21,932 nucleotides of DNA, taken from the IMG/VR virus record IMGVR_UViG_3300005613_002533, positions 1 through 21,932 of that record; one strand, 5' to 3'. A model generated the notes under the pieces. It ran no database searches. It was not told the origin of the DNA and worked only from the letters and a program-made list of their open reading frames with translations. This document shows, piece by piece, positions 1 to 21,856 of the stretch (position 1 is its first letter; each line of letters opens with the position of its first letter). The position numbers and the translations under genes are program-made. The stretch comes from a virus.

Positions 1-761
1 ACAATTGGGACTTATTCACTTTAGATTCTACTGGTAGTGGGAGTTATGACGGAACAGGCGGCAACCTTGTTATAAGGTCTACTGAAGCTGTTTGGAACGA
101 AGGTGGAGCAGACGTAGACTTCCGTATAGAGGGAGACAACGAAGCTAATCTACTTGTAGTAAACGCAGGGGATGATGATATAGTTATGACTTCTGCACAG
201 ACAGATAGTTCAGTACTTACGATAGACGCTAACGGAACTACTGGAGCTACTGGAGAAGCAGCGGTAAGGATAGATAGTGAGAATACTGATACAGCAGCTT
301 TGTATATTACTAGTGCTGTTGATGCTAGTGGTGCAACTAATGTAGATGATTATGGGTTGGCTGTACAGACTGAAGGTCTTGGTGGGTGTATGTATGAATA
401 TAGAAATACAGTAGCCGTTGTACCTATGCACTATATAATAGAAGCTAATGCTAATTCACAAGGGGCTTTGTTATCTATGACTACTGCTCAAGATGATACT
501 GTTGTAACTTCAGCATTGAACATATCTTCCTCTAACGCTGCCTACGATAGACCTCTAATAGACCTAACTCAAGCAGGTGTTACATCTACCAACTTCAAAA
601 AAATGATAGAGCTTGATGGTCTTACTATCTGGATTTCTGACGGCACAACTGCTGAAGGTAACCTAACTGGAGTAGAAGGAGACATCTGTTTAAACGGTGG
701 TACTGGAGCAGGACAGATGGCTTACTGTGACGCCTCGGGGACCAATTGGACCGACATGTAA
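1..761 (+). CDS. Tail-fibre-like structural protein, C-terminal part (5' end outside window)
   Basis: The reading frame is open from position 3, so the true start lies upstream of the window; the Met at 186 is internal. About 252 residues are visible. The protein is low in charge and rich in Gly, Thr, Ser, Asn and Asp, with the pattern VDFRIEGDNEANLLVV near the start, which is familiar from phage tail-fibre and receptor-binding proteins that carry repeated beta-structured segments. The last residues, YCDASGTNWTDM, resemble the C-termini of many phage fibre proteins (YCxGTNW). The stop TAA (759-761) is followed one base later by the stop codon of an antisense HNH gene, and a second copy of the final eight codons lies at 1285-1308. 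The fibre assignment rests on composition and style, not on a catalytic motif. Confidence 0.7.
   Translation, partial: NWDLFTLDSTGSGSYDGTGGNLVIRSTEAVWNEGGADVDFRIEGDNEANLLVVNAGDDDIVMTSAQTDSSVLTIDANGTTGATGEAAVRIDSENTDTAALYITSAVDASGATNVDDYGLAVQTEGLGGCMYEYRNTVAVVPMHYIIEANANSQGALLSMTTAQDDTVVTSALNISSSNAAYDRPLIDLTQAGVTSTNFKKMIELDGLTIWISDGTTAEGNLTGVEGDICLNGGTGAGQMAYCDASGTNWTDM
738..761 (+). repeat. Recoded 3' end of the fibre gene, upstream copy (GTNWTDM-stop)
   Basis: These eight codons encode G-T-N-W-T-D-M-stop and form the present end of the fibre gene. The downstream copy at 1285-1308 encodes the same peptide. The two differ at five of 24 positions and all five are third codon positions: GGG/GGA, ACC/ACA, AAT/AAC, ACC/ACT, GAC/GAT. 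TGG, ATG and TAA are identical. Confidence 0.85.
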
Positions 762-762
762 G

Positions 763-1248
763 TTAGATTATATTACTAATAATGAATTTAGGATTTTTAT
801 GAAAACGCATATGAGCAGATTTACTAGGAAACAGATAAAGATTTTCAGGGCGATTATCAAGTTTGTCTCCGTTAATATGGTGGATTACTTCCGCCTTAAG
901 GAGATAGCGTCCAAGAGATTTCTCTGCTACAAGAATTTGCTCAGGCACATAACCATTCTTCATAGCTCTATGATGGTGAGGTTGAAAGATGTGTTTATAA
1001 CCAGTTGTTGTAATGGTGTATCCTTTTGGTATAGGTCTATTAAGTTTCTTACCCTTACACCAAGGAATATGTCCTTTTTTAAACGAACCAGAGTTGTTTT
1101 TCATAATACCCTTAGTTCCAGTATTCCAAGTGGGTTTACCTTTCTTGGAAATACCATAACAGGTATGAGAACAATATTTATGAACTCTATTACCTTTAGA
1201 CCTACGAGAAAATTCTTTACCACATTGTTTGCAAGTGTATGTTTTCAT
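763..1248 (-). CDS. HNH homing endonuclease (free-standing, antisense)
   Basis: This 161-residue protein begins MKTYTCKQCGKEF. An N-terminal zinc finger is formed by C6, C9, C26 and C30. Next come short Gly/Lys/Trp-rich DNA-binding segments of NUMOD3-like style (GKPTWNTG near 37-44, GSFKKGH at 54-60). The catalytic HNH region is VIHHINGDKLDNRPENL (about 121-137) with H123-H124, N132 and N136, followed by H146 and H150. The enzyme should make a site-specific break that drives its own copying into phages lacking it. The frame continues upstream to 1344, but MKTYTC is the better start because the extra 32 residues read through the fibre gene remnant. There is no Shine-Dalgarno sequence before the ATG; a consensus promoter directly upstream suggests leaderless translation. 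It is the only convincing gene on the - strand here. Confidence 0.9.
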   Translation of the reverse strand: MKTYTCKQCGKEFSRRSKGNRVHKYCSHTCYGISKKGKPTWNTGTKGIMKNNSGSFKKGHIPWCKGKKLNRPIPKGYTITTTGYKHIFQPHHHRAMKNGYVPEQILVAEKSLGRYLLKAEVIHHINGDKLDNRPENLYLFPSKSAHMRFHKNPKFIISNII

Positions 1249-1254
1249 AGGTCT

Positions 1255-1284
1255 ATTATAACAGGAGGAAGTCCTATTTGTCAA
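1255..1284 (-). promoter_or_regulatory. Consensus sigma-70 promoter for the antisense HNH gene
   Basis: On the - strand, TTGACA (+ coordinates 1279-1284) is followed by an 18-bp spacer and TATAAT (1255-1260). Both hexamers match the bacterial housekeeping consensus exactly. Only six bases separate TATAAT from the HNH ATG (1246-1248), so the expected transcription start falls at or next to the start codon. The -35 box lies within the remnant fibre gene end, on the opposite strand. Confidence 0.7.
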
Positions 1285-1308
1285 GGAACAAACTGGACTG
1301 ATATGTAA
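1261..1308 (+). pseudogene. Remnant of the original fibre gene 3' end (downstream copy)
   Basis: In the + frame this piece reads TGGSPICQGTNWTDM-stop. Its last eight codons (1285-1308) match the end of the fibre gene at amino-acid level with only third-position changes. The preceding part aligns loosely with TGAGQMAYCDAS of the upstream copy, including the shared Gly and Cys. It has no start of its own and is cut off from its gene by the HNH element. Its TAA overlaps the ATG of the next gene (TAATG), which probably keeps the pre-insertion junction between the fibre gene and its neighbour. Confidence 0.75.
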
Positions 1309-1721
1309 TGAAAACATTACTAACCCTGATAACTGTAATTGCACTTATGTTAGCTATCCAAGTTTACGGGTCTGCTAGATATGATGAATGGCAGTGGATG
1401 GCGGGGGAGTTATACATACAAGATAAAAGCAACACTGTATGCAGACACCGATGTGCTTTAATCGCTAAAAGGATGATAGAGAACGGGAAGTCTTTTGATC
1501 TCGTATTTGGTACAACGCCTACAGCCAAGCGTCATGTAAGGATAGAATACTGGAAAGATTACGAATTTGTGATCCTTGAACCTTCATGGTCTGATAGTGC
1601 TACATATAAGTTTATAGAAGATGATAGATGGTCGTATATTCCAAATGAAGATGCTAATATTCGAGTTATAAGTTGGGTCAACAGAGTATTGTTAGAGCTT
1701 GGCGAAAGACCAACAGATTAG
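1308..1721 (+). CDS. Exported protein resembling a transglutaminase-like cysteine peptidase
   Basis: This 137-residue protein starts with a lysine and a hydrophobic stretch (residues 3-20, LLTLITVIALMLAIQVY) typical of a signal peptide or membrane anchor. The mature part has C45 and C49 at the head of a predicted helix (CALIAKRM), H76 in RHVRIEYW and E91 in ILEPSW. This order, Cys on a helix, then His-Val with an aromatic strand, then an acidic residue before Pro, resembles small bacterial transglutaminase-like cysteine peptidases. The protease assignment is tentative because the triad is inferred by eye. The start overlaps the stop of the fibre remnant; an AAGGA at 1283-1287 is too distant to be a good ribosome site. 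It may act in the envelope during lysis or entry, or on a virion protein. Confidence 0.5.
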   Translation: MKTLLTLITVIALMLAIQVYGSARYDEWQWMAGELYIQDKSNTVCRHRCALIAKRMIENGKSFDLVFGTTPTAKRHVRIEYWKDYEFVILEPSWSDSATYKFIEDDRWSYIPNEDANIRVISWVNRVLLELGERPTD

Positions 1722-2028: not shown

Positions 2029-3439
2029 GGCTGAAGAAGATTTAATATTCTTTGCTCAAGAGTTTATTTCAAAGGCTCTAGTATCTAAATATACACCTGA
2101 TTTTCACAGGGAACTCTATAAGCTTATCTCGAAGCTTAAAGGTTTTAATCTTATAGTAGCCCCTAGAGGTCATGCAAAAAGCACAGCTTGTAGTGTTATA
2201 TTCCCGTTATGGTGTGCGATGTATGGTCACAGGAAAGACATTATCATAGTATCTGCGTCACAGGGGTTATCTGTTGATCTCTTGAGGAAGATCAAGATGG
2301 AGTTAGATACTAATAAGTTATTTAACGGTATAGGGTGGAGATATAAGACCGCTAAGTGGTCAGAGAACCATATACAGATTAGAAGTCTCAAGGGAGATAT
2401 AATCAATGTAAGGGCGTTAGGTGCGGGAGGTCAGACGAGAGGATGGCGACCCGATTTATTTATACTGGACGATATAGAGAATGATGAAGGTGTCCAAAGT
2501 TTAGATCAACGGAAGAAACTGAAGGAATGGTTGAATAAAGCAGTTATAGGAACTTTACTACCAGAAGGACAGATCGTTGCTGTAGGGACGATACTGCACC
2601 ATGATTCTATGTTACAGAACATACTGGATCAACCGTTAGGGTGGACAACTAAGTTTTATCAGGCATACATAGACGCAGTGCAGGACGAAGATCATGTTCT
2701 CTGGAAAGAACAATTTAACCATAAGCAACTTCAGGAGCGTAAGGCGATTCAGGGCAGTTGGGCTTTTTCCTCAGAGTATTTGAACATCCCAGTATCACAA
2801 GAAGACGCTCCTTTTAAGCCTAACGACATCAGGTATTTTGAGGAACTTCCAGATAAATATTCTATGGTAGTCACACTTGATCCTGCTTATACAGAAGGAA
2901 ACCAGTCTGACTATAAAGTATGTGTAGTAATCGCAAGGGATATGGAGAACAACCGATACCTAGCAGACTACACAGCTACCAAACTCCCTATGAACGATTA
3001 TATGCAGTCAGCATTAAATCTTATACTCAAGTACAAAAACAAGATCACTTCAGTAGGGATGCCTTCAGGCAGAGAGATAGATTTCTGGAACAAGTTTATA
3101 GAGTTTTGTGCAAGTAAGGGACATTATTTCAATTTCGTAGAGTTAAAGAATACATCAAGTTTACAGACAAACCTTTCGATGAAAGGTAAAAGTGCAAGAA
3201 TCATAGCGAGTTTGCAAGGTCTATTTCAGCAAGGCAAGTATTACCTTCGCAAGAGTCAAGAGTTAGCGATAGACCAATTAGCAACTTTCCCTAGAGGAAA
3301 ACATGACGACATCATAGATGCGATGAGTTATGCAGAACAGATTATCATGCCAGTTTATTTTGATACAGAAGGTGATGATCCGACACTAGGTAAAGAAGAA
3401 CCCGTTTTAAACAGAGGAATTTGCGGATATGACAGCTAA
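1982..3439 (+). CDS. terL: Terminase large subunit
   Basis: This 485-residue protein is the packaging motor that drives DNA into the prohead and cuts the concatemer. The ATPase domain holds Walker A APRGHAKST (residues 60-68), Walker B LFILDDIE (159-166) and a likely coupling motif in AVGTILHHDS (200-209). The C-terminal RNase H-like nuclease domain has D300 in TLDPAYTEGNQSD and the late acidic cluster HDDIIDA (441-447). The length fits the family. The start has no strong Shine-Dalgarno site and lies inside the preceding gene, suggesting coupling; the first residues (LSSKALELKKKLHKAEEDL) form a plausible helix. It overlaps the portal gene by 11 nt, the classic terminase-portal order. Confidence 0.97.
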   Translation: MELSSKALELKKKLHKAEEDLIFFAQEFISKALVSKYTPDFHRELYKLISKLKGFNLIVAPRGHAKSTACSVIFPLWCAMYGHRKDIIIVSASQGLSVDLLRKIKMELDTNKLFNGIGWRYKTAKWSENHIQIRSLKGDIINVRALGAGGQTRGWRPDLFILDDIENDEGVQSLDQRKKLKEWLNKAVIGTLLPEGQIVAVGTILHHDSMLQNILDQPLGWTTKFYQAYIDAVQDEDHVLWKEQFNHKQLQERKAIQGSWAFSSEYLNIPVSQEDAPFKPNDIRYFEELPDKYSMVVTLDPAYTEGNQSDYKVCVVIARDMENNRYLADYTATKLPMNDYMQSALNLILKYKNKITSVGMPSGREIDFWNKFIEFCASKGHYFNFVELKNTSSLQTNLSMKGKSARIIASLQGLFQQGKYYLRKSQELAIDQLATFPRGKHDDIIDAMSYAEQIIMPVYFDTEGDDPTLGKEEPVLNRGICGYDS

Positions 3440-5567
3440 AAAAACTAAGAAAGTACCATACTTCCCAAAGAAAGACGAACTTTGTGATCATTGGGTAAAT
3501 GAAGTTGACCACGCTGACACAGCGAGAGATACTTGGAAAAGTAACCGTGAGAAATGGTGGAAGATGCGTATGCGTATCAGAAAGGTTAAAACCTTTCCTT
3601 TTGCGGGTTGTGCAAATGTAAAGATGCCTACGGTAGAGAGTATCCTACGAAAACTTAAAGCACAGAAAGTAAACACAATTTTTGGTGTTAGACCAGTTGT
3701 ACAGGCTATAACACCACCTTCAGTTGATCCGCAGATAGGGGTAAGAGCAGAGAAGTTTATAGATCACCTTATCATGGATGTAGATAGGGCTAAACTCAGA
3801 GCAGTCAGAGCTATAGACCAAGAACTAGAACAGGGTTTTGTAGTGATGAAACCTTACTGGGCGTATGAGGAGACTAACAGGATAGAGACTATAAAAATAG
3901 ATGAACTACCAGAAGATTTCATAAACCTTCTATTTTCCACAGAAGTTTCTGATGACATCGTTCTACAGTTAGCAGTTCAGCATTTAGAAGTTGATATGTC
4001 TGATGATGTCATGGACGACAACATTCAAGCAATACAACAGGCTATACAGACGCTACGCACAGGAGCGGATGAAGTTAATATCGTTCTTAAAGATGTATTA
4101 AAGAACCATCCTTCCTTTGATGTATATGACGCTGATAAGGTATATGTTCCTTCAGACAGTAAAGCCGATCCTCAGAACGCAAGATGGATAGCATTTGAAA
4201 TGTATATGCCTTATGAGGAAATGTTACGAAATGTAGAGGTCAAGGAATGGGATAAGAACGCAGTCCTTGACATAGACTGGCTACGCACTGCTGATAAAGA
4301 CCAGATAAAAGAGTATGTAGCAAGTGAAGTCCAGAAAGTTAAAGACATTGATTATAAGGACTTGGGAGAGGGTATCAATAGGATTAACAACCCCTCACAC
4401 CTAGTAAAGATATATGAGATATACGGATGGCATGATGTTAATGGTGACGGGGTAGAAGAAAAAGCTATCATCACTGTAGCACCAGACTTCAAGAAAGTTC
4501 TCCGAAAGACCACACTTCCTTTCGATAGTGGCAGGTATCCTGCAATAAAACTTGCATACGAACAGAGGGAAGACCGATGGTATGCACATAGAGGTCTATC
4601 AGAGATTATGGAAGACATCGTGAAAGAGATTGATACAGTTCACAACATGAAACTGGATTCTCTTACTATCCGTAATGCTCCGATGTTCACATTTAAGGCA
4701 GGTGCGGTAAACCCACGAATGATCAAGTTCATACCCGCACAGGCTATTCCGAGACAGGATAAAGATGATATAACACCGCTTAATAACTCAAACCCACAAG
4801 CAGATTTCTCATGGGATAGGGAACAGCAGATACTTGAAAGTAAACTCTCAGAGCTTACAGGACAGATCGATTATACCCTACAGTCTCAGATGAACAGGAG
4901 ACAACCGAGAACTGCACAGGAAGTTCAGGCACAACAATCAGCTTCACAGATGGTATTCAACCTAGATGCTGAACTTACTACAGAAGCTTTCAGCGAGTTG
5001 TTTCAGTGGTATGCTGATCTATACTCCCAGTATGGCGACCAGAAAGCCGAAATAGCTTACTTTGGTCAGGACGGTCAGGAATCTATCAAGATGACTAGAG
5101 AAGAACTACAGGGTCTTCGTCTGATAGTCAGAGGTAACGATAGAAACACCAATCCACAGGTCAAAATGCAGACAGCCCAGATGATACTTCAGGATGTTTA
5201 CCAAGCATTACAGACTGGGACTGCTACACCTATGAATATATTTAACGCTCGTAAGAGATTCTATCAAGCTCTTGGTGAGACTAATCCAGAACAGTTCGTT
5301 CAGCAACCACAACCACAACAGCCTAAACCAGACACGGAAGTTCTCAAGACTATCTATGATAACTTGTCAGTAATGGAACAGGCACAGGTTAAGCAGATGA
5401 TGGGGATACAACCTGATATGCAAGGTAGTATGGCTGAGAAGAAACTGGAAGTCGCTGAGAGAGATTCTGAAATCAAAAAAAGGGAAAGCGATGCTCAGGG
5501 CGACATGATGAATACCCTAATAAAAGGTGAGGGTGAAATACAGAAAGCGTTTGGAAACAAAGAATAA
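3429..5567 (+). CDS. Portal protein
   Basis: The gene encodes 712 residues directly after terminase, the usual place for the dodecameric portal that forms the DNA channel at the capsid vertex. The N-terminal region has a Trp/Arg-rich segment followed by KTFPFAGCANVKMPTVES (about 54-71), a pattern seen in large podovirus-type portals. The middle contains RYPAIKLAYEQREDRWY and GLSEIMEDIVKEIDTVHNMK, typical of the stem and clip region in this family. The C-terminal third is helical and Gln-rich, with a QQPQPQQPKP stretch near residues 623-632 and a coiled-coil-like tail. The ATG follows a weak GAGG site and overlaps the end of terL. Confidence 0.9.
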   Translation: MTAKKTKKVPYFPKKDELCDHWVNEVDHADTARDTWKSNREKWWKMRMRIRKVKTFPFAGCANVKMPTVESILRKLKAQKVNTIFGVRPVVQAITPPSVDPQIGVRAEKFIDHLIMDVDRAKLRAVRAIDQELEQGFVVMKPYWAYEETNRIETIKIDELPEDFINLLFSTEVSDDIVLQLAVQHLEVDMSDDVMDDNIQAIQQAIQTLRTGADEVNIVLKDVLKNHPSFDVYDADKVYVPSDSKADPQNARWIAFEMYMPYEEMLRNVEVKEWDKNAVLDIDWLRTADKDQIKEYVASEVQKVKDIDYKDLGEGINRINNPSHLVKIYEIYGWHDVNGDGVEEKAIITVAPDFKKVLRKTTLPFDSGRYPAIKLAYEQREDRWYAHRGLSEIMEDIVKEIDTVHNMKLDSLTIRNAPMFTFKAGAVNPRMIKFIPAQAIPRQDKDDITPLNNSNPQADFSWDREQQILESKLSELTGQIDYTLQSQMNRRQPRTAQEVQAQQSASQMVFNLDAELTTEAFSELFQWYADLYSQYGDQKAEIAYFGQDGQESIKMTREELQGLRLIVRGNDRNTNPQVKMQTAQMILQDVYQALQTGTATPMNIFNARKRFYQALGETNPEQFVQQPQPQQPKPDTEVLKTIYDNLSVMEQAQVKQMMGIQPDMQGSMAEKKLEVAERDSEIKKRESDAQGDMMNTLIKGEGEIQKAFGNKE

Positions 5568-8733: not shown

Positions 8734-11013
8734 ATGAAGAAGACGACAGTAGGGTTAGGTATTATTTGCAAGGATGAAGTTGAAGATGTTTACAGGATAC
8801 TAAAGAATTACGGTAAATACTTTGACAAGATATGCGTTACCGTAACGAACAAGAAAGAATGGGAAGCCATTAAGAAGTTTGACAAGCTGAAGGATAAAGT
8901 CTATGTCAATTACTTCGAATGGTGTAACGATTTCTCTAAGGCAAGGAACTTTAACTACAGCCACTTAGGGACTGACTGGATTTTCTACATGGACTGCGAT
9001 GATGATATAGATCATCCAGAGAAGATCAGGGAGATAGCAGAGAAAGCTAACTTAGGTAATATCGACTTGGTTTGGATGTATTACTACTACGACCTTAAAG
9101 AAGGTGTGGAGCATTGGAAAGAAAGACTAATGCGTAACGATGGCACTTTTGAATGGAAAGGTGTAGTCCATGAAAACCTGATAGCAAAAGAGAATAGGAA
9201 GTTTGAGATAAGCTCCACAGATGAAGTTGCGTTGATCCATAGACCTACAGAAGAAAGGCAAGACGAGTCAGCGAGTCGCAACCTTCAGCTACTACTACAA
9301 GAATATAAGAAAGACGGGGATAAGACAGACCCTAGAATACTCTCTTATATAGCTATGACACTATATGGTATGGGTGGATACAAAGACTGTATCCCATTCT
9401 TTAATAAGCACATAGAGAAAAGTGGTTGGAAGGAGGATGTTTATAATTCATGGGTAGTTATGGCAAGGGCTTATCAGCATTTAGAGGATTACAAGAGTGC
9501 CATAGGCTGTCTATACGAAGCTATGGATATAAGGTCGGACTTCCCAGACGCATACCTCGCCTTAGCGGAAGTCAAGTTCTACGAGAAGGACTGGAAGGGA
9601 GTCGAGCAGTGGACACTGGTAGGATTACAGAAAAAGAAGCCTAAGTTTGGCATACCTTCTGTAAGAACCAGTAACTATACTTTCAGACCGCTTGTATTTC
9701 TATCACACGCTTATCTTAATGACGGTGAGATAGACAAAGCGTTTAACACCATAACATCAGCAAAGACTATTGCACCTAAGAACGAGTCGGTGCTTAAACA
9801 ATACGATTTCATCGAGAAGGTTTACACAGAGAAGAAGTATCTGCAAAACATGGTCTGGATGAAGACTTACTTAGAGGAGAATGATAAGGAGACAGCGTTT
9901 AACCTCCCGTCAATAATACCTGCTAACTTAGCAAGTGACGATAGGTTTATCAAGTTGAGGAACGCCTTATCGAAACCGCATAAATGGAACGAAAAAAGCA
10001 TCGTTATATATTGTGGGGAAGCATGGGAAGACTGGGCAGACCCATCAGTAATAACAGGAATAGGTGGATCGGAAGAAGCAGTAGTGTATGCGAGTCGGGA
10101 GTTAGTGAAGCAAGGTTACGAAGTAACCGTCTTCAACTCTTGTGGAAATTTAGAAGGGGAGTATAACGGAGTAGTTTACAAAAACTGGTATAACTTTAAT
10201 CCAGTAGATGTATTCAACACCCTTATATGTTGGAGAGGATCACTATTCAGACACTACAACCTCAAAGCTAAAAAGAAGATTGTATGGCTACATGATGTTC
10301 CCGCACAGAACGAGTTTAACGAAAAAGAGTTAAAAGAAATAGATCACATCATTGTTCTTTCTCAATATCACAAATCATTACTACCAACAGTACCAGAGGA
10401 CAAGCTATATGTCTCTACTAACGGTATAGTTCCTGAACAGTTTAAGCCAGATGCTCTAAAGCAAGACTTCAGGATGTGCTATACCTCAAGCCCTGACAGG
10501 GGTTTAGAACATCTACTTGATAGATGGGAAGACATAAAAGAAGGCTGTCCTGAAGCCGAACTTCATATCTACTACGGATGGGGGACATTTGATAAGAGGT
10601 TCAAAGAGAATAAAGAAATGCAGGCTTGGAAAGCTGAAATGGTAGAGAAGATGAAACAGCATGGTATCAAATGGTATGGAAGAATCGGGCATAAGAAGCT
10701 TGCAAAAGAAATGGCTCGATGTCGTATATTTGCTTACCCATGTAACTTTGAAGAAATCAACTGCATCAGTGTATTAAAAGCACAGGCAAGTAACTGTTTA
10801 GCTCTTACTACTAACTACGGTGCATTGAACGAAACGAATGAGTATGGCATCAAGATCAAGGGTAACACGAATGATAAGAAAGTAATGGATAAGTGGGTAG
10901 AGAACATCATCTACGAACTTAATCATCCTACGGATCAGAAGTGTGCAGATAAGATTCTAAAGAAATACTCATGGGAGAATGTAACCCAGAATTGGAGTAA
11001 GGATATTCTATGA
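8734..11013 (+). CDS. Bifunctional glycosyltransferase: GT2 domain, TPR region, GT4-like domain
   Basis: This 759-residue protein has two glycosyltransferase modules. Residues 1-180 are GT-A/GT2-like: VGLGIICKDEVEDV at the start, WCNDFSKARNFN, the metal-binding acidic cluster DCDDDI (87-92) and FEWKGVVHENL (139-149), as in TPR-linked GT2 proteins of Gram-positive phages and bacteria. Residues about 195-365 are helical repeats of TPR type. Residues about 420-759 are GT-B/GT4-like: GGSEEAVVYASREL (444-457), IVWLHDVP, VLSQYHKSLL, STNGI, SPDRGLEHLL, and a C-terminal Glu-containing donor-site motif near EEINCISVLKAQA (673-685). It may add two sugars in succession. It opens the cassette and overlaps the radical SAM gene by 4 nt. 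Acceptor and donor cannot be told from sequence. Confidence 0.85.
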   Translation: MKKTTVGLGIICKDEVEDVYRILKNYGKYFDKICVTVTNKKEWEAIKKFDKLKDKVYVNYFEWCNDFSKARNFNYSHLGTDWIFYMDCDDDIDHPEKIREIAEKANLGNIDLVWMYYYYDLKEGVEHWKERLMRNDGTFEWKGVVHENLIAKENRKFEISSTDEVALIHRPTEERQDESASRNLQLLLQEYKKDGDKTDPRILSYIAMTLYGMGGYKDCIPFFNKHIEKSGWKEDVYNSWVVMARAYQHLEDYKSAIGCLYEAMDIRSDFPDAYLALAEVKFYEKDWKGVEQWTLVGLQKKKPKFGIPSVRTSNYTFRPLVFLSHAYLNDGEIDKAFNTITSAKTIAPKNESVLKQYDFIEKVYTEKKYLQNMVWMKTYLEENDKETAFNLPSIIPANLASDDRFIKLRNALSKPHKWNEKSIVIYCGEAWEDWADPSVITGIGGSEEAVVYASRELVKQGYEVTVFNSCGNLEGEYNGVVYKNWYNFNPVDVFNTLICWRGSLFRHYNLKAKKKIVWLHDVPAQNEFNEKELKEIDHIIVLSQYHKSLLPTVPEDKLYVSTNGIVPEQFKPDALKQDFRMCYTSSPDRGLEHLLDRWEDIKEGCPEAELHIYYGWGTFDKRFKENKEMQAWKAEMVEKMKQHGIKWYGRIGHKKLAKEMARCRIFAYPCNFEEINCISVLKAQASNCLALTTNYGALNETNEYGIKIKGNTNDKKVMDKWVENIIYELNHPTDQKCADKILKKYSWENVTQNWSKDIL

Positions 11014-11894
11014 AGAATCTATACTTGAAACTGGCATACAGATACGAAGATGTTAAGAAGTGCCTGAAGGGGAAAACACCAATTCCTCTCTCAGCGACAA
11101 TATTCCCCAGTGAGAGGTGTAATCTTCACTGCGTTTATTGCCACTCCGAGAGCATACATGATGGAGGGCAGATGTCATGGGATACTTACAAATCTGTTAT
11201 AGACGACTTAAAGCTCTTTGGCGTAGAGTCCGTAGCTTTCGAGGGGGGAGGAGAACCTCTCTTAAACCCTTTGATGGGGAAATTTATAACATACGCAAAA
11301 GGGAAAGGGCTAGGCGTTGGCATACTCACAAACGGGACGATCTACATAGATGAACTTCTACTGGCTGACTGGATAAGGATAAGTCTGGATGTTCCGAACA
11401 AAGAGATATTCAACGAGATCAAAGTTCCTTCTGATCCAGAATGTTTCGATAAGATACTAGGAAACATAGCTACACTGGTTCAGAACAAGAGTAAGACCAC
11501 CATAGGGATAAAGTTCATGTTATCTAAATGGTGGACGGATAGGGAAGCTTGTAAGAAGCTTTGCAGAGACTTAGGGGTGGATTACTGCCAAGTCAAATAT
11601 GTAAGGCATCACAAGCTTTCACTAATGGACGACAGGGCAAGGGCAGGAGAAGCGTGTAAGTTGACACCCTTAAAAGTAGTAATCAACTATGACGGGTCTT
11701 TGCACCTTTGCCCCTTCTTCCATCATCAACCTCAGATGAAGATAGGAGACGGTCTGTTAAGCGAACTCTGGGGGAGCGAACAGCACAAGAAAGCCATAAG
11801 CTGTATAGACCCTAAGAAGTGTGCTTACTATGACTGTCCTATGAGAAACATAGACTTTCAAAGACTAGAGGATGCACATTTATCATGGGTATAA
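11010..11894 (+). CDS. Radical SAM protein with SPASM-like C-terminus
   Basis: The gene encodes 294 residues. The CxxxCxxC iron-sulfur motif is C37-NLH-C41-VY-C44, and the SAM-binding GGEP motif appears as EGGGEP (78-83). The C-terminal region has further cysteines, C216, C234, C265, C271 and C276, in the NYDGSLHLCPFF...CIDPKKCAYYDC pattern of SPASM or twitch auxiliary cluster domains. Relatives modify peptides or carry out radical steps in sugar and cofactor pathways, so the substrate is open; the surrounding glycan genes suggest a sugar or a glycan-linked group. The start ATG overlaps the preceding stop (ATGA), and no precursor-peptide gene is obvious nearby. Confidence 0.85.
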   Translation: MKNLYLKLAYRYEDVKKCLKGKTPIPLSATIFPSERCNLHCVYCHSESIHDGGQMSWDTYKSVIDDLKLFGVESVAFEGGGEPLLNPLMGKFITYAKGKGLGVGILTNGTIYIDELLLADWIRISLDVPNKEIFNEIKVPSDPECFDKILGNIATLVQNKSKTTIGIKFMLSKWWTDREACKKLCRDLGVDYCQVKYVRHHKLSLMDDRARAGEACKLTPLKVVINYDGSLHLCPFFHHQPQMKIGDGLLSELWGSEQHKKAISCIDPKKCAYYDCPMRNIDFQRLEDAHLSWV

Positions 11895-11914
11895 AGAGTA
11901 GAGGTAATTATAGC

Positions 11915-12064
11915 ATGGGGTTTTGCATGAAGTTTGACTGTAGAAACAGAGGAGAGAAATGTGACAAATGCTATGGACACACAGAGTATATTTCTGGCAA
12001 TAGGGGGAGACATCGGAGAGCGGTGTCTGAACTACTTAGCAAAGACGGGCGTAGAGATAACTGA
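11915..12064 (+). CDS. Possible small Cys-rich ORF overlapping the formyltransferase start
   Basis: A 49-codon frame starts MGFCMKFDCRNRGEKCDKCYGH and carries C4, C9, C16 and C19, a spacing that could bind a metal. The second half overlaps the formyltransferase in another frame, and the ribosome site is weak (AGAGG about 12 bases upstream). The stretch from 11895 to 11960 is otherwise the longest gap in the cassette, which is the main reason to list it. It may be a chance frame. Confidence 0.25.
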   Translation: MGFCMKFDCRNRGEKCDKCYGHTEYISGNRGRHRRAVSELLSKDGRRDN

Positions 12065-12578
12065 TGTATTACGGAGGGGAGAGAAGTTTAGAACAACCCC
12101 TGCTGATTTTCTGATCTCTATACAATACGATAAGTTGTTTAGCGAACAGGACTTATCGCAATACAAGAAAGCCTATAACTTTCATTTTAGTATGTTACCC
12201 CTTAACCGTGGATGTTTACCTATCAACTGGGCTATATGGAATGGTGATCCGATAGGTGTAACCTTACACGAAATGACAGACGGAATAGATGATGGTTGCA
12301 TCATCGATAAGATACAGGTTCAAGATGAAGTAGAGGAGACAGCATACACAGCATATAAGAAGTGTTGCAAAGCCTGTTACGAGTTACTAACAAGAAATAT
12401 TGGAAGGCTGTTGAGGGATGATTACACAGCTACCCCTCAAGATCACAGCAAGGCTACCTACCACAAGAAGGGAGAGTTCCCGTGCGACAAGTATTTGGAC
12501 GGGTTAAACAAGTGGGATAAGGAGCGGTTACAAAGGGCTTTATGGTTTCCAGAGAAGGAAGGAGCAAGATATAGATGA
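11961..12578 (+). CDS. Formyltransferase-family protein (sugar N-formyltransferase-like)
   Basis: The protein (205 residues) has the formyl-THF-dependent formyltransferase core: NFHFSMLPLNRG (N73 and H75 as the catalytic Asn and His), PINWAIWNGDPIGVTLHEMTDGID with D110 at the position of the catalytic Asp, then DGCIIDKIQV. It is shorter than methionyl-tRNA formyltransferase (about 310 residues) and lacks that enzyme's C-terminal tRNA-binding domain, so N-formylation of an amino sugar nucleotide is more likely. The start chosen is GTG 11961, because AGGAG lies six bases upstream; the ATG at 11973 has no such site, and the in-frame ATG at 11934 lies before it. It overlaps the next gene by 4 nt. 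Confidence 0.8.
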   Translation: MTNAMDTQSIFLAIGGDIGERCLNYLAKTGVEITDVLRRGEKFRTTPADFLISIQYDKLFSEQDLSQYKKAYNFHFSMLPLNRGCLPINWAIWNGDPIGVTLHEMTDGIDDGCIIDKIQVQDEVEETAYTAYKKCCKACYELLTRNIGRLLRDDYTATPQDHSKATYHKKGEFPCDKYLDGLNKWDKERLQRALWFPEKEGARYR

Positions 12579-13282
12579 ACTGGGCTACGATAACCATTTG
12601 TTATAACGAAGAAAAACGCATCAGACAAGCGTTGCAGAACAGAAAGGATGGTGGTTATGAAACAAACCTCGTCATGTTGTCAGAGAAACCGTTTTATGGG
12701 AAAGAGTATCCGAAGGATAGAACGGAAGAAATCGCAGAGGAAATGGGTGCTGAAGTTATTAAAGGTGTATGGTCACAAGATGATCCTATGCTTAATGTCG
12801 GTCTTAATGTGCTTAAAGGCTTTGATTATGTCTTATTTCTTGCACCAGACGAGTTCCTTACCAGAGAAGACCACATCGCACTTAGACGATTTGTGGAAGG
12901 ACAAGGGGACTACCCTGCCTTCGCAGTATCTAAAATGAACACCTACTTTAAGAGTTCTGAATGGAGGGTTGAACCCCGTGAAGACTACAAACCGATCATT
13001 GTTGTCGATCCTAAAAAAACGCAGTTCAGAGATATTCGTTCAGTTACAAGTAACTTCGGGTATCTTCCTGCTGATATTACTTTGTATCATTACAGTTGGG
13101 TACGAGGTGATGAAGAAGTTAGGCGAAAGCTTGACAACTTCTCTCACGCACCGCAAATAACACCTAATTGGTATGAAGAAGTCTGGGAGAAATGGACACC
13201 AGACACTAAAGACTTTCATCCAATGAACCCACCGCAGTATCATTCCGTAGTAAAAGACCCACCACCAGAGGAGTTTTTATGA
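12575..13282 (+). CDS. Glycosyltransferase family 2-like protein
   Basis: This 235-residue protein begins MNWATITICYNEEKRI, the usual first strand and NEE loop of GT-A glycosyltransferases. FDYVLFLAPDEFLTREDH (83-100) takes the place of the DxD segment, with D92 as likely metal ligand. The C-terminal half has LYHYSWVRGDEEVRRKLDNFSH and a Trp-rich end that recall the acceptor side of phage and bacterial GT2-like proteins. The canonical DxD is imperfect, so activity needs testing. It shares ATGA overlaps with both neighbours and probably acts in the same pathway. Confidence 0.7.
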   Translation: MNWATITICYNEEKRIRQALQNRKDGGYETNLVMLSEKPFYGKEYPKDRTEEIAEEMGAEVIKGVWSQDDPMLNVGLNVLKGFDYVLFLAPDEFLTREDHIALRRFVEGQGDYPAFAVSKMNTYFKSSEWRVEPREDYKPIIVVDPKKTQFRDIRSVTSNFGYLPADITLYHYSWVRGDEEVRRKLDNFSHAPQITPNWYEEVWEKWTPDTKDFHPMNPPQYHSVVKDPPPEEFL

Positions 13283-13677
13283 AGATAGTATTTACTTATG
13301 GTGTATTTGATCTCTTTCATGCAGGTCATGTGAAACTCTTAGAGAAGTGTAAGAGTTATGGTGACAGGCTGATAGTTGGTTTATACACAGACAAAGTAGC
13401 AGAAGATTTTAAGAGACCGCCAGTAATGGATTATGCAGATCGCAGGGATGTATTACAGGCTTGTGCGTTTGTAGATAATGTATGGATGTTAGACGACAAA
13501 GACCCTACAGATGCTCTTAGATATTTAGAACCAGATGTCTTAGCAAGAGGAGACGACTGGGATGTAATACTAGGCGAAGAATATATGAAGTTTCACGACA
13601 AACCTACCATCGCTATACCTTATCACGAAGGTATAAGCACATCGGAGATTATCAAGAAGATAAAAGATGAATATTGA
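13279..13677 (+). CDS. Cytidylyltransferase, TagD / glycerol-3-phosphate type
   Basis: This 132-residue protein is a compact nucleotidyltransferase. The HxGH active-site motif is HAGH (14-17) after TYGVFDLF, and the second nucleotide-binding motif is GISTSEII (118-125). The segment ARGDDWD (89-95) matches the KGDDW block of TagD-type enzymes, which make CDP-glycerol from glycerol-3-phosphate and CTP for teichoic acids. Length and layout fit that family. Closely related enzymes activate other phosphorylated alcohols or heptoses, so the substrate is a prediction. In this cassette it would supply an activated donor to the glycosyltransferases or to a phospho-transfer step. Confidence 0.8.
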   Translation: MKIVFTYGVFDLFHAGHVKLLEKCKSYGDRLIVGLYTDKVAEDFKRPPVMDYADRRDVLQACAFVDNVWMLDDKDPTDALRYLEPDVLARGDDWDVILGEEYMKFHDKPTIAIPYHEGISTSEIIKKIKDEY

Positions 13678-13948
13678 TTTATTCCTGAAGTTAATGACTT
13701 CATACCACATAACGGATTTCTTTCAACCGTCATGGCTGAAGACTGAGAAGAAAAGCAATATGTTATATCTCGTTCAACACGCCCTTATAGACGGAGGTTT
13801 GATATACCTTATAACGCAGGATATAGCGTTGTTTATGATGGTATCGCTTAGTCATTTTATTATAGATAAGTGGCAGTTACATAATGAAAACCGATTAGCA
13901 GACAGGGCAGGACATTTAGCAATATGGATACTATTAAGTTGCATTTGA
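13667..13948 (+). CDS. DUF3307-like small membrane protein
   Basis: The gene encodes 93 residues in two or three hydrophobic segments (about 40-64 and 84-93). It has the conserved polar pattern of DUF3307 proteins: H14-xx-D17-F-x-Q20 with W23 and K25, H38, S62-H63-F-xx-D67-K68 and D79-xxx-H83. Function of the family is unknown; the His/Asp arrangement inside the membrane suggests metal or proton chemistry. It overlaps the cytidylyltransferase by 11 nt, so it may be part of the glycan operon. The LAGLIDADG gene starts inside its last 25 nt. The protein ends soon after the last conserved His, so slight shortening by the insertion cannot be excluded. Confidence 0.7.
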   Translation: MNIDLFLKLMTSYHITDFFQPSWLKTEKKSNMLYLVQHALIDGGLIYLITQDIALFMMVSLSHFIIDKWQLHNENRLADRAGHLAIWILLSCI

Positions 13949-14373
13949 AAGACGATAATCTTTTATCTTGGATGGGTGGATTCTTTGATGGAGAAGGGTG
14001 TGTCAATCTGAACAAGAGTGGACTCAGAGTTGTTGTAACGAACACCAGATTAGATGCTTTGGAGATATTCCAGAACTATTTTACTGGTCTAGGTGCAAAA
14101 AGCAAGAAGTATAGGAGGAAAAACACAACAGCTAAGAAGGTTTGTTGGCAGTTGGTATATTGGAGTAATCACGCAGAGCTTGTTTTGAAAACTTTATTAC
14201 CTTATATGGTTCTCAAGAAAGAAGAAGCTGAAACTGCCTTAATGTATAGGTCACTTCAAATATATCACGGAAGGAAGTTACCGTGGTATAACGCAGTGGC
14301 AAGGAGAATGTTGGAGGATAAATGCAAAGCACAGAAAAGAAACGAGACGGAACTATTGTCCGTCTCCATTTAG
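13924..14373 (+). CDS. LAGLIDADG homing endonuclease (single motif)
   Basis: This 149-residue protein has one LAGLIDADG motif, LSWMGGFFDGEGC (about 14-26), with D22 and E24 near the catalytic position. It is followed by the usual alpha-beta pattern: LRVVVTNTRLDALEIFQNYF, a basic segment KKYRRKNTTAKKVCWQLVY, then LPYMVLKKEEAETAL. One motif per chain implies a homodimer acting on a roughly palindromic site. It overlaps the DUF3307-like gene by 25 nt and the methyltransferase gene by 52 nt, so it lies in an operon junction rather than in an intron. Unlike the two HNH genes, no duplicated neighbouring gene end is visible around it. Confidence 0.9.
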   Translation: MDTIKLHLKDDNLLSWMGGFFDGEGCVNLNKSGLRVVVTNTRLDALEIFQNYFTGLGAKSKKYRRKNTTAKKVCWQLVYWSNHAELVLKTLLPYMVLKKEEAETALMYRSLQIYHGRKLPWYNAVARRMLEDKCKAQKRNETELLSVSI

Positions 14374-14873
14374 GATGCGGACAGGATGTAAGGAAAGGGT
14401 ATATCAACATAGATAAGTTTGACACCCGTTGTAGTGGAGTTATACAGGGAGATATGCTTGATCTGGCAGAGTTCGATGATGAATCAGTAGATGAGATTCT
14501 AATGATAGAGGTTATCGAACACTTAGACTTTAAGGAGTTGGAGATAGGTTTAAGAGAGTGGCAGAGAGTATTGAAGCCTGAAGGTTTCTTACATACCGAA
14601 TGTCCAGACATCTTAGAAATAGCCAAGAAGATCGTAGAAGAAGACCTTACAGACCCTCTAATGTATGACATCTGGGGACAGTATTACAGACCGTGGGATG
14701 AAGAACATTACGGGGCTGACATATTACAGGGGATGTTTCATAAGCAAGGTTTCACTAAGAAGCGTATTGAGTGGTTAGCGAAAGAGCATGGTTTCTCAAG
14801 AATAGAAGACATACCTTTCAAGGATAAGCAATATCCTACACCATTATCTCTTGCTGTAAGGTGGTATAAATGA
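14322..14873 (+). CDS. SAM-dependent methyltransferase of glycan-cluster type
   Basis: This 183-residue protein is a class I methyltransferase. Motif I is LHLGCG (15-20), D31 in YINIDK ends strand 2, and EVIEHLD (63-69) and RVLKPEG (82-88) are the usual following motifs. The LGCGxxxxxGYINID style is common in lipopolysaccharide and capsule gene clusters, often beside glycosyltransferases. GGAGG lies a few bases before ATG 14322, inside the C-terminal part of the LAGLIDADG gene, and supports this start. It overlaps the next gene by 4 nt. The methyl acceptor is probably a sugar, but this is inferred from context. Confidence 0.85.
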   Translation: MQSTEKKRDGTIVRLHLGCGQDVRKGYINIDKFDTRCSGVIQGDMLDLAEFDDESVDEILMIEVIEHLDFKELEIGLREWQRVLKPEGFLHTECPDILEIAKKIVEEDLTDPLMYDIWGQYYRPWDEEHYGADILQGMFHKQGFTKKRIEWLAKEHGFSRIEDIPFKDKQYPTPLSLAVRWYK

Positions 14874-15616
14874 AGAACTTAATACTATGTTGGGATGCAG
14901 TAGCTCCTGACATACAACTAAGAAAAGAGTTTAATTTCCCATATCACGGGAAACTGCGTTGTCCCGCTACTTGTGGACAGAACTGGTCTTGCACCCTTAC
15001 CAGTATGATAAGTCTCTACATAGGGCGAATATGGGACGAATATTGTTACTGGGAGACAGCAGACCCACTACTTAATGGATTTGAAAAGACGCTCTTTAAC
15101 AAAGGCACATGGGGACTGTTAGGATTACCGTGGTTATATCCACTACCAGACGATCTAAAAGGGTGGGGGATAGTAGGGTTTCCTAACCCAGATATGCCAA
15201 AGTGCAGTCCGCACTATGAGAAACATGGCAGGATGTTCACTGAAGGTTTAGAAGAAGACTTCAAGATACTAAACGATTCATGGAACAAAGGGATATATGA
15301 TCCTGCTGTAGAGTATAAAATCAAGACAGACATACTCAAAAAGACACCTGAAGTAGATACAGTCTTCATGGAGTATGATTCAGTTAACAGGGGCTACCAT
15401 AAACTCGGTAATGCTGATGATGGAGTGATGTGGGAACAGTGTCTATGGTTTACCAACAAGCTATTAGATGAGTTCAAACCAGATAACTATATCATCTTCT
15501 CAGATCACGGTAAGCCTAAGAAACCAAAAGCCTACGACCATGATGGGGTCTGGGCTTCGAATCAAGATTTGAAGTTAGAAACATTTGAAGACTTAATAGG
15601 AGTATTACACAAATGA
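14870..15616 (+). CDS. Alkaline-phosphatase-superfamily-like enzyme
   Basis: The gene encodes 248 residues with the landmarks of the alkaline phosphatase/sulfatase/phosphodiesterase superfamily in order: D9 in LCWDAVAPD (metal ligand), NWSCTLTSMISLYIGR (38-53) with C41 or T42 as nucleophile, D170-xxN-xx-H177 in EYDSVNRGYHKLG, IIFSDHG (208-214) with D212-H213, and YDHDGVW (222-228). It is about half the usual size and seems to keep only the catalytic core. There is no signal peptide, so it acts in the cytoplasm. It may hydrolyse or transfer a phosphate or phospho-alcohol, perhaps on the same substrate as the TagD-like enzyme. Confidence 0.7.
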   Translation: MKNLILCWDAVAPDIQLRKEFNFPYHGKLRCPATCGQNWSCTLTSMISLYIGRIWDEYCYWETADPLLNGFEKTLFNKGTWGLLGLPWLYPLPDDLKGWGIVGFPNPDMPKCSPHYEKHGRMFTEGLEEDFKILNDSWNKGIYDPAVEYKIKTDILKKTPEVDTVFMEYDSVNRGYHKLGNADDGVMWEQCLWFTNKLLDEFKPDNYIIFSDHGKPKKPKAYDHDGVWASNQDLKLETFEDLIGVLHK

Positions 15617-16272
15617 AGTGGTCAATAATAATACCGTCATACCTGATTAATGCACGACTGGTAGCACTAGCTAACAAGTGTATAGCGTCTATACATAAGA
15701 CTACCAAACAAGAATATGAGATCATCATGGTTGAAAGTGGGGAGTATGAAGTTGAAGGTGCAGATATACTCATACGCCTACAAGACCAGACACCTTTCGC
15801 AAGGGCTGTAAATCTTGGAACGAGAGTAGCGAGTGGTGAATATCTGGTTATATGTAACAACGACTTAGAGTTACCTGAAGGATGGGAAGAAGCCATAGAA
15901 GAAACCTTCGAGTCGGATGATAATTGTGCAATAGCTACGCTACAGTCCAGTGAGGAAAACAAACCAGAGTTTGATGAGATCAGAGAAGACTTCTTCGGGG
16001 GGTTCTGGGTTATACATGAGGAGTCATTCTTTGACATAGGTGATCTGGACGAACAGTTTGTAAATTCATTTGAGGATGCCGATTACTGGCTAAGAACAAG
16101 AGCAGACGGAGCAAAGATACTAAAGAACTGTAAGCTTAATGTTCTTCATCATGCCAGACAGACAGTAGATATAGACCTACTGAACCATTCCCAAAATTAC
16201 ATAAAGAATAGAGAATTATTTAACCAGAAGCATGAGGGAAGCCAAGACTCATGGTTCGCGCACTTGAGGTGA
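15613..16272 (+). CDS. Glycosyltransferase family 2
   Basis: This 219-residue protein is a GT-A fold transferase: MKWSIIIPSYLINAR at the start, FARAVNLGTRVASGEYLVICNNDLELPEGW (62-91) with the acidic NND at 82-84 in place of DxD, GGFWVIHEESFFDIGDLDEQF, and the catalytic-type EDADYWLR (154-161). A His-containing strand (LNVLHHARQT) follows, as in rhamnosyl- and related transferases. It closes the glycan cassette, with an ATGA overlap to the preceding gene, and lies four bases before the virion genes resume. Donor and acceptor are unknown. Confidence 0.85.
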   Translation: MKWSIIIPSYLINARLVALANKCIASIHKTTKQEYEIIMVESGEYEVEGADILIRLQDQTPFARAVNLGTRVASGEYLVICNNDLELPEGWEEAIEETFESDDNCAIATLQSSEENKPEFDEIREDFFGGFWVIHEESFFDIGDLDEQFVNSFEDADYWLRTRADGAKILKNCKLNVLHHARQTVDIDLLNHSQNYIKNRELFNQKHEGSQDSWFAHLR

Positions 16273-20494: not shown

Positions 20495-20920
20495 ATGAAC
20501 TTAGGCGAATGGAACTATATTATATTACTTCCTATATCCAGTCTGCTCTTTATGATCGGTGGGACTGGGTTTAAGTGGGCTAGAAGGTTTGTCCTTCCTG
20601 CTGTCATAGCAGGTATGGCTATCCTGAATGGTTCTAATATATGGCTGTCACTTGGGGCAGGAGGGCTTCTGGTAGGAGCTTTCTGTATGCCTTATGGTGA
20701 CGGTAAGGACTGGTGGTTTAGGTTTATGATAGGGTGTTTATACGCTCTTGCCTTGCTACCACTAGGCTTTACAACCTTTCAAGCGATCTATCCTTTTATA
20801 TTTCTACTAACATTTTATATCAGCAACCAGAAATGGGGAGAGAAATGGCTACCGTGGAAGGCTTGGGAAGCTCTTAATGGTCTCTTGATAGGTTGGATGG
20901 CATCACTTCTAATAACATGA
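20495..20920 (+). CDS. Multi-pass membrane protein; target gene of HNH element 2
   Basis: The gene encodes 141 residues with about five hydrophobic segments (roughly 8-24, 32-46, 49-65, 76-108 and 127-141), and AGGA upstream of the ATG. No family is recognised; holin or superinfection-related roles are possible for a small phage membrane protein in this region. The final segment, GLLIGWMASLLIT (129-141), is encoded again after the HNH gene, at 21480-21521. The stop TGA overlaps the HNH start (ATGA), so the two are translationally coupled. Confidence 0.75.
   Translation: MNLGEWNYIILLPISSLLFMIGGTGFKWARRFVLPAVIAGMAILNGSNIWLSLGAGGLLVGAFCMPYGDGKDWWFRFMIGCLYALALLPLGFTTFQAIYPFIFLLTFYISNQKWGEKWLPWKAWEALNGLLIGWMASLLIT
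20879..20920 (+). repeat. Recoded 3' end of the membrane-protein gene, upstream copy
   Basis: The 14 codons encode GLLIGWMASLLIT-stop. Against the downstream copy, the first six codons differ strongly (GGT/GGG, CTC/CTA, TTG/CTT, ATA/ATT, GGT/GGA, TGG/AGC) yet only one residue changes (W to S). The next 20 bases (20897-20916 against 21498-21517) are identical, then ACA/ACC and TGA/TAA differ. Confidence 0.88.
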
Positions 20921-21480
20921 ATAGAATCAAACGAGATAAAAGTGGTCGTTTTGTGAGTGGAAGTTTTATCCCCACACCTGCAAATAAGGGGAAGCCTGAA
21001 CACTATAAAACCATTACTAAATATTGCGAGTGCGGTTGTGGTAAGATTGTAACCTTTAAACCTATAGAAAAAAGCAGAAGGAATCAGAGGTTTATCAAGG
21101 GTCACAATGCACGAATTTATAGCAAGGAGCATCGCCAGAAGTGTTCGGAAAAGGCTTCGAAGACTCGCAGGAATAACGGACAACCTCGCCTAACTCCGAT
21201 TTATAAGCGGATAAAAGTTAGTAAGAAATATAAAGAGTGGCGTATTCAAATATTCTCAAGAGATGGTTATAGGTGTCAGGAATGTGGAGGGCGTGGAGGA
21301 GAGCTAAATGCTCACCACATAAAACCCTTTTCGCATATCTACAGAGAAGCTATAGACATATATGATGATGGTAATGTTATAGAGTCTATCCTTGAATACG
21401 AACCCCTCTTTGAACTTGGCAACGGTATTACTCTATGCCGAGAGTGTCACATAAAGGTTCACAATGAGAAATACGCATAG
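20917..21480 (+). CDS. HNH homing endonuclease (free-standing, sense)
   Basis: This 187-residue protein begins MNRIKRDKSGRFVSG. It has a basic N-terminal region with a Cys cluster (C37, C39, C41 in CECGCGK) and a short GHNARIYSKEHRQKCSEKAS segment like those of phage HNH proteins. The catalytic C-terminal part is classic: WRIQIFSRDGYRCQECG with C120 and C123, AHHI (132-135), then N169 and LCRECHIKVH with C174, C177, H178 and H182. An earlier TTG in frame is possible, but ATG 20917 overlapping the TGA of the membrane-protein gene is the natural start. It should cut the unmodified target in related phages. It lacks the N-terminal zinc finger and NUMOD3-like parts of the other HNH protein here. 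Confidence 0.9.
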   Translation: MNRIKRDKSGRFVSGSFIPTPANKGKPEHYKTITKYCECGCGKIVTFKPIEKSRRNQRFIKGHNARIYSKEHRQKCSEKASKTRRNNGQPRLTPIYKRIKVSKKYKEWRIQIFSRDGYRCQECGGRGGELNAHHIKPFSHIYREAIDIYDDGNVIESILEYEPLFELGNGITLCRECHIKVHNEKYA

Positions 21481-21856
21481 GGCTACTTATTGGAAGCATG
21501 GCATCACTTCTAATAACCTAATAGCTAAAATATACAATTACTTCAAGTCCGATTATGGAACTGAGCAGAGCGAAGTGGATAAGATGCTCTCAACTCATAA
21601 GATATATAGGACTTTAATAATAAGTGACAAGGCTATGGCTAGATTTAATGTATCAGAAGATGGACTAAGAGCCGATGTCTTAGATGCGGTAGTGGTTGAA
21701 GGTGGACTCAAGACCTTACGGGAAATGATGAGGATAGGCAAAAAGAGATTCCCGACACTCACAACAATAACATGGGGGAGATCACATTCTCATCCGAATC
21801 CTAATAAACCCCATGAGGTAAAGACAAGAGATTTTAATAAACTTACAAAGGAGTAA
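21464..21856 (+). CDS. Hypothetical phage protein with a start possibly supplied by HNH element 2
   Basis: The frame encodes 130 residues from ATG 21464, which has AAAGG six bases upstream and overlaps the last 17 nt of the HNH gene. Residues about 1-18 come from the HNH 3' end and the gene-end remnant, so they cannot be original. The likely native part begins around LIAKIYNYFKSDYGTEQSEVDK (19 onward) and continues with YRTLIISDKAMARFNVSEDGLRADVLDAVVVEGG, a compact alpha/beta-looking segment. Other starts are GTG 21575 and ATG 21584, both without good ribosome sites. No family is recognised with confidence. Confidence 0.65.
   Translation: MRNTHRATYWKHGITSNNLIAKIYNYFKSDYGTEQSEVDKMLSTHKIYRTLIISDKAMARFNVSEDGLRADVLDAVVVEGGLKTLREMMRIGKKRFPTLTTITWGRSHSHPNPNKPHEVKTRDFNKLTKE
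21480..21521 (+). pseudogene. Remnant of the original membrane-protein gene 3' end
   Basis: In frame this reads GLLIGSMASLLIT-stop, which is the last part of the membrane protein with one change (S for W). It has no start and is detached from the gene by the HNH element. Its first base is the last base of the HNH stop codon. The same bases are read in another frame as part of the next gene if that gene starts at 21464. Confidence 0.8.

Follow-up and report, generated by a model that had tools for sequence, protein, structure and literature searches.

The closest described precedent for the arrangement reported here is provided by mobile ORF elements of fungal mitochondria that carry an inserted C-terminus (PMC3630166), exemplified by atp6 of Allomyces macrogynus and by atp6, atp9, cox2 and nad3 of Glomus (PMC3630166). 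In these elements, as in the sister phage loci L014 and L020 described below and, by inference, in the window, an endonuclease gene follows a foreign gene end that is diverged in DNA and conserved in protein, and the native end persists downstream as a relic resembling the sequence of relatives (PMC3630166). In Glomus atp6, the inserted and native ends share 63.5% DNA identity, and the duplicated end is 91.2% identical to that of a close relative (PMC3630166). The Allomyces atp6 design had been put forward as an analogue in the original prediction, and the published descriptions confirm that the layout is the same (PMC3630166). The fungal elements are found in organelles and encode LAGLIDADG or GIY-YIG endonucleases, whereas the phage cases encode HNH endonucleases in sense or antisense orientation; unlike the fungal ones, the latter also have short recoded ends (about 12 codons) and include probable mirror cases at gene starts (loci L025 and L031).

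Several phage systems share part of this design. In T4, mobA and the bypass of gene 60 also combine a free-standing HNH endonuclease invading a phage coding gene, a shielded host allele and a protein that is kept (PMC5009743); however, gene 60 is split and ribosomes bypass its 50-nt insert (PMC5009743), whereas the gene end is synonymously recoded in the phage cases presented here. F-CphI of cyanophage S-PM2, known for collaborative homing, is likewise a free-standing endonuclease whose conserved coding target is protected in its own genome, but by a group I intron and not by recoding (PMC6083498). The seg and mob homing genes of T-even phages are located close to conserved genes and in many cases overlap the stop of the gene upstream, and their endonucleases act through double-strand break repair with co-conversion; they are described as intergenic, and a duplicated recoded gene end is not mentioned in the accessible part of that source (PMC2988022). 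Within the open-access literature searched, no case of a recoded gene end in a phage came up, subscription papers being outside the scope of this search.

Here, we analysed a 21.9-kb virus record (the window), which holds terminase, portal and further structural genes. Genes of glycosyltransferase, radical-SAM-like and methyltransferase-like type form a long stretch between its capsid and tail genes (8734–16272), and a comparable block is annotated in MW202743 (L083). The body of a tail-fibre-like gene (3–722, plus strand; GC3 of about 23%) is part of an open frame covering positions 3–761, whose 5' end lies beyond the window; profile searches matched it to no family. The upstream segment 738–761 and the downstream segment 1285–1308 each encode GTNWTDM and end with TAA. 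These two 24-nt copies, spaced by 547 nt, are 79% identical, and their five differences all fall at third codon positions (5/5). Re-reading the window confirmed this pair and the antisense HNH gene that it surrounds, both of which had been noticed in the original prediction; the chance of 1 in 243 given there is right for codon position alone, the peptide-level figure being P = 1.5e-5, the Monte Carlo probability that five changes placed at random in the upstream copy leave all eight codons synonymous. The duplicated unit is larger than had been noted: the foreign-looking, functional upstream end begins near 723 (723–761, plus strand, approximate start, with the repeated part at 738–761), and the downstream copy, inferred to be a relic of the native end, extends from about 1261 (1261–1308, plus strand, TGGSPICQGTNWTDM-stop, left limit approximate). 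A relic start near 1261 is probable, since the frame ahead of 1285 reads TGGSPICQ and fits a longer native ending; the longer endings compared are YCDASGTNWTDM upstream and PICQGTNWTDM downstream. The relic retains a stop/start overlap with the following gene (1308–1721, plus strand, function unknown), its stop sharing bases with the ATG of that gene in TAATG at 1308.

The space between the two end copies is filled by HNH gene 1 (763–1248 from its ATG, minus strand), convergent with the fibre gene and predicted to encode a 161-amino-acid endonuclease. Its product belongs to the HNH_3 family according to Pfam PF13392 (E = 7e-11, 42 bits against a curated cut-off of 24.8) and also matches PHROG HNH families; a possible N-terminal zinc finger is sub-threshold in Pfam and has an E-value of 5e-7 by phmmer. 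The layout is that of a mobile C-terminus, with two copies of a gene end around an endonuclease gene and a functional copy that is synonymous yet diverged in DNA. A consensus sigma-70 promoter (TTGACA-18-TATAAT with an extended TG; 1255–1284, minus strand) reads into HNH gene 1 and ends 6 nt ahead of its ATG. It matches the consensus at 12/12 positions, is the sole such match in the window, where 0.02 would be expected, and has its -35 box inside the relic (1261–1284). Transcription of HNH gene 1 probably starts at this sigma-70 promoter of its own. Promoter-like sequences also occur near the duplicated ends of L020 (TTGACA-16-TATACT) and L044 (TTGACA-16-TATAAT).

Base composition bears on which of the two fibre ends is foreign. 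In the last 12 fibre codons, GC3 reaches 8/10 as compared with 22.5% in the gene body (Fisher, 3e-4), and P remains at about 0.004 or less wherever the tail is cut from 8 to 13 codons; the downstream relic is body-like in this respect (GC3 1/13). This contrast is compatible with import of the upstream end and a native origin of the relic, but it is supporting evidence and not proof, because the tail length was picked after the sequence had been seen. Searches with the terminase, fibre, membrane protein and portal found no relative of the window fibre or membrane gene that is empty, i.e. without the HNH gene, and a donor phage for the recoded end was likewise not found. The best relative of the window phage was a 62% portal match (L084/L085) without a recognisable fibre end. 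Another relative, L094, has an intein-like insertion in its terminase large subunit frame (1341–2362; CFTGETSVYT...VVHN before S). As empty alleles of its own fibre and membrane genes were not found, the polarity in the window rests on composition and analogy.

Because the searches failed to uncover a close relative of the window phage, we turned to relatives of the HNH gene, scanning 70 viral loci and the window genes for in-frame repeats across an HNH gene. In locus L014, a 94-amino-acid gene ending in IDGGKAYVYIY-stop is followed by an HNH gene, whose protein is 39% identical to the HNH gene 1 product, and then by the relic STIDGGKAYVYIY-stop. The sister locus L097 is without the HNH gene, is 94% identical in the protein of the 94-amino-acid gene and has the next gene in common. 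Within the final 36 nt, nine substitutions separate the upstream copy of L014 from L097, each at a third position and together affecting 9/12 codons, and three separate the relic from L097; over the initial 240 nt of the gene there are 22 (the body is 9% diverged). These counts indicate that the recoded end and the HNH gene are new in L014 and that the relic is the native end. In L014 the stop/start overlap with the next gene is absent, and a near copy of the start of that gene (AAGATGATAAAACTTAGC / AAAATGATAAAACTCGAC, at 3504–3523 / 3564–3583) lies ahead of the relic.

A second sister system, L020, has an antisense HNH gene as in the window, with KIDALVLGIKR-stop as functional end and GKIDTLVLRLK-stop as relic. 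In L107, L108 and L109, whose proteins are 63 and 58% identical to that of L020, KIDTLVL stands at the gene end and the gene runs straight into the next one with an ATGA overlap, which the L020 relic has kept. The stretch ATTGATACGCTTGTGTT is letter-for-letter the same in the L020 relic and in L107/L108, and over a 21-nt core the relic has 2 differences each from L107 and L109, against 5 and 6 for the functional copy. Querying the contigs of L097, L107 and L109 with the L014 HNH gene gave no match. Both systems therefore display the empty allele that had been anticipated, a gene body joined directly to sequence like the downstream relic (L014/L097 and L020/L107/L109), and in both the recoded copy is the functional end adjoining the HNH gene, as the nine synonymous sites of L014 illustrate. 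An empty allele resembling the upstream copy, which would have refuted the prediction, was not found among the sister systems.

A third locus, L015 (L110; a prophage in the genome of a Laceyella sacchari isolate), agrees with a native relic, although the evidence is weaker. Its methyltransferase ends in QAGNSVSVPVIFEIAK, and the C-terminus of the HNH protein itself constitutes the relic QAGNSVTVNVIYEIAK. Ends more similar to the relic than to the functional end are present in 8/8 of the closest methyltransferase relatives listed (L214, for example, with 16/16 versus 13/16 residues), and in the whole set of relatives the protein ends favour the relic by 34 to 8; DNA identity is near-even, 27 to 23. 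Among 80 genome loci with relatives of this methyltransferase, the only clear relic was that of L015/L110 itself.

The window also contains a second arrangement of this type (20879–20920 / 21480–21521), around a different HNH gene, which the original prediction does not mention. A membrane-protein-like gene (20495–20920, plus strand) has its end duplicated, one copy lying at 20879–20920 and the second, inferred to be the relic, at 21480–21521 (plus strand). Its stop is overlapped (ATGA) by the start of HNH gene 2 (20917–21480, plus strand; 187 amino acids), assigned to PF01844 (E = 2.6e-6) and PF13391. HNH genes 1 and 2 thus belong to different HNH families and lie in opposite orientations; only 8 relatives of HNH gene 2 were found in viral contigs, all weak. 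The two ends, GLLIGWMASLLIT-stop upstream and GLLIGSMASLLIT-stop downstream, differ at 10/42 nucleotides and are identical at 13/14 residues (P = 1.5e-5). A 20-nt stretch before the stop, ahead of the last base of the threonine codon, is identical in both copies, so any protection at this locus would have to rest on the diverged 5' part. The next gene (21464–21856, plus strand) reads through the relic and uses this stretch of the downstream copy in a different frame; it has its ATG and its AAAGG ribosome-binding site within the end of HNH gene 2. A third homing-type gene is present within these 22 kb, encoding a LAGLIDADG_3 protein (13924–14373) and overlapping the end of a DUF3307 gene (13667–13948); no flanking duplication was detected around it.

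Flanking duplications were counted by an identity-based test, a score-only version being inflated by low-complexity sequence. They accompany 8/80 non-redundant HNH genes (about 10%), as compared with 3/272 size-matched control genes from the same loci (1%), and in all eight the two copies differ. The 10% figure is rough, given that the loci were sampled as relatives of a few HNH genes. Two of the eight, L025 and L031, are the probable mirror cases, located at the start of cytosine methyltransferase genes; the L031 methyltransferase gene may be decayed, as its frame breaks after the downstream copy. L044 is ambiguous because its methyltransferase frame continues without interruption along the HNH gene. 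In this locus (2650–3420), as in L197 (Mycobacterium phage ShiLan gp65), the HNH gene lies inside an open DNA methyltransferase frame and has two similar copies of a VAxKP motif at its flanks, an arrangement that may reflect either dual coding or a variant of the same design located within a gene. In L193 (Alteromonas phage AD45-P4), thymidylate synthase is annotated as two pieces with two endonuclease-like genes between them. Annotated records of 14 phages with HNH relatives contained no clear case, two apparent ones being overlaps of the compared flanks.

Taken together, we consider it likely that these loci harbour a free-standing HNH homing endonuclease element equipped with a recoded replacement for the end of the invaded gene, cleavage and protection being inferred. 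The anatomy and the polarity are strongly supported by sequence comparison in the sister systems, and the same reading is extended to the window fibre locus by analogy and composition. The original proposal that the element brought a recoded fibre end is thus supported both by the sister systems and by GC3 in the window. In such a scenario, the HNH enzyme would recognise and cut the native gene end in co-infecting phages that are without the element; one broken end would invade the homologous gene end of the donor and copy the recoded end together with the HNH gene, and the other side would be joined illegitimately, at sites of little homology, beyond which the native end would persist as a relic. 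For intron homing in T4, repair from one side only, with junctions at microhomologies, is reported (PMC2988022). The sequence of the resulting hybrid protein would be essentially unchanged, and the host genome would presumably be protected because the recoded site no longer fits the nuclease.

The downstream copy might additionally be kept for regulation, contributing to the HNH promoter and to the start of the gene that follows, a tentative suggestion that adds to the main reading and does not substitute for it. The location of the -35 box of the perfect promoter within 1261–1284, the TAATG overlap at 1308 and the ATGA overlap of empty alleles kept by the L020 relic are all in line with such a role; these features could however be inherited passively, and L014 has no stop/start overlap to preserve.

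A more serious competitor to homing, which we nonetheless regard as unlikely, is ordinary mosaic recombination, by which a block made of a diverged gene end and an HNH gene would have been joined illegitimately to the gene end of the recipient. The duplication would then be a scar, the synonymous differences would reflect nothing but donor divergence and the recoding would not be protective. An identical anatomy would result without any enzyme activity, and HNH genes are known at boundaries of genetic exchange (PMC10448857). Yet the scar is enriched around HNH genes relative to control genes, L014 and L097 are conserved on both sides so that only the recoded end and the HNH gene are new, and the pattern recurs with different HNH families and orientations.

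An intron or intein with the HNH gene inside is very improbable. HNH genes do often reside in group I introns (PMC2988022; PMC3428280), and splicing of the insert would have refuted the original prediction, but no intron family was found by an Rfam search of the window and sister loci. HNH gene 1 is moreover antisense, and both end copies have their own stop, the fibre stop preceding HNH gene 1, so that neither a group I intron nor an intein can be recognised; an intron would also leave the exon sequence unduplicated. Lastly, a target-site duplication upon insertion followed by neutral drift, already disfavoured in the original prediction, would account for direct repeats at both flanks of the inserted gene but can practically be set aside, as it is contradicted by differences that are nearly all synonymous (P about 1e-5) though one copy would be free to drift, by an L097 empty allele that is like one copy and unlike the other, and by foreign GC3 confined to a single copy.

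Homing with a recoded gene end would explain how, in the absence of an intron or intein, conserved coding sequence can be targeted by a phage homing gene, namely through synonymous replacement. With somewhat less assurance than for the individual loci, we favour the view that free-standing HNH homing genes of phages recurrently rely on a general strategy, that of bringing along a recoded part of the gene they invade, at gene ends as well as, in mirror image, at gene starts, seen in roughly one in ten of the HNH genes sampled. The hypothesis gives a testable prediction on cleavage and a genomic signature for the targets of orphan HNH genes, as the relic marks the native target. If true, HNH homing genes could reside within essential coding genes with neither an intron nor an intein around them, and short gene segments would be swapped between diverged phages, providing a route to short mosaic exchanges where tail, membrane and methyltransferase genes end. 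It would also carry the design known from fungal mitochondria over to bacterial viruses.
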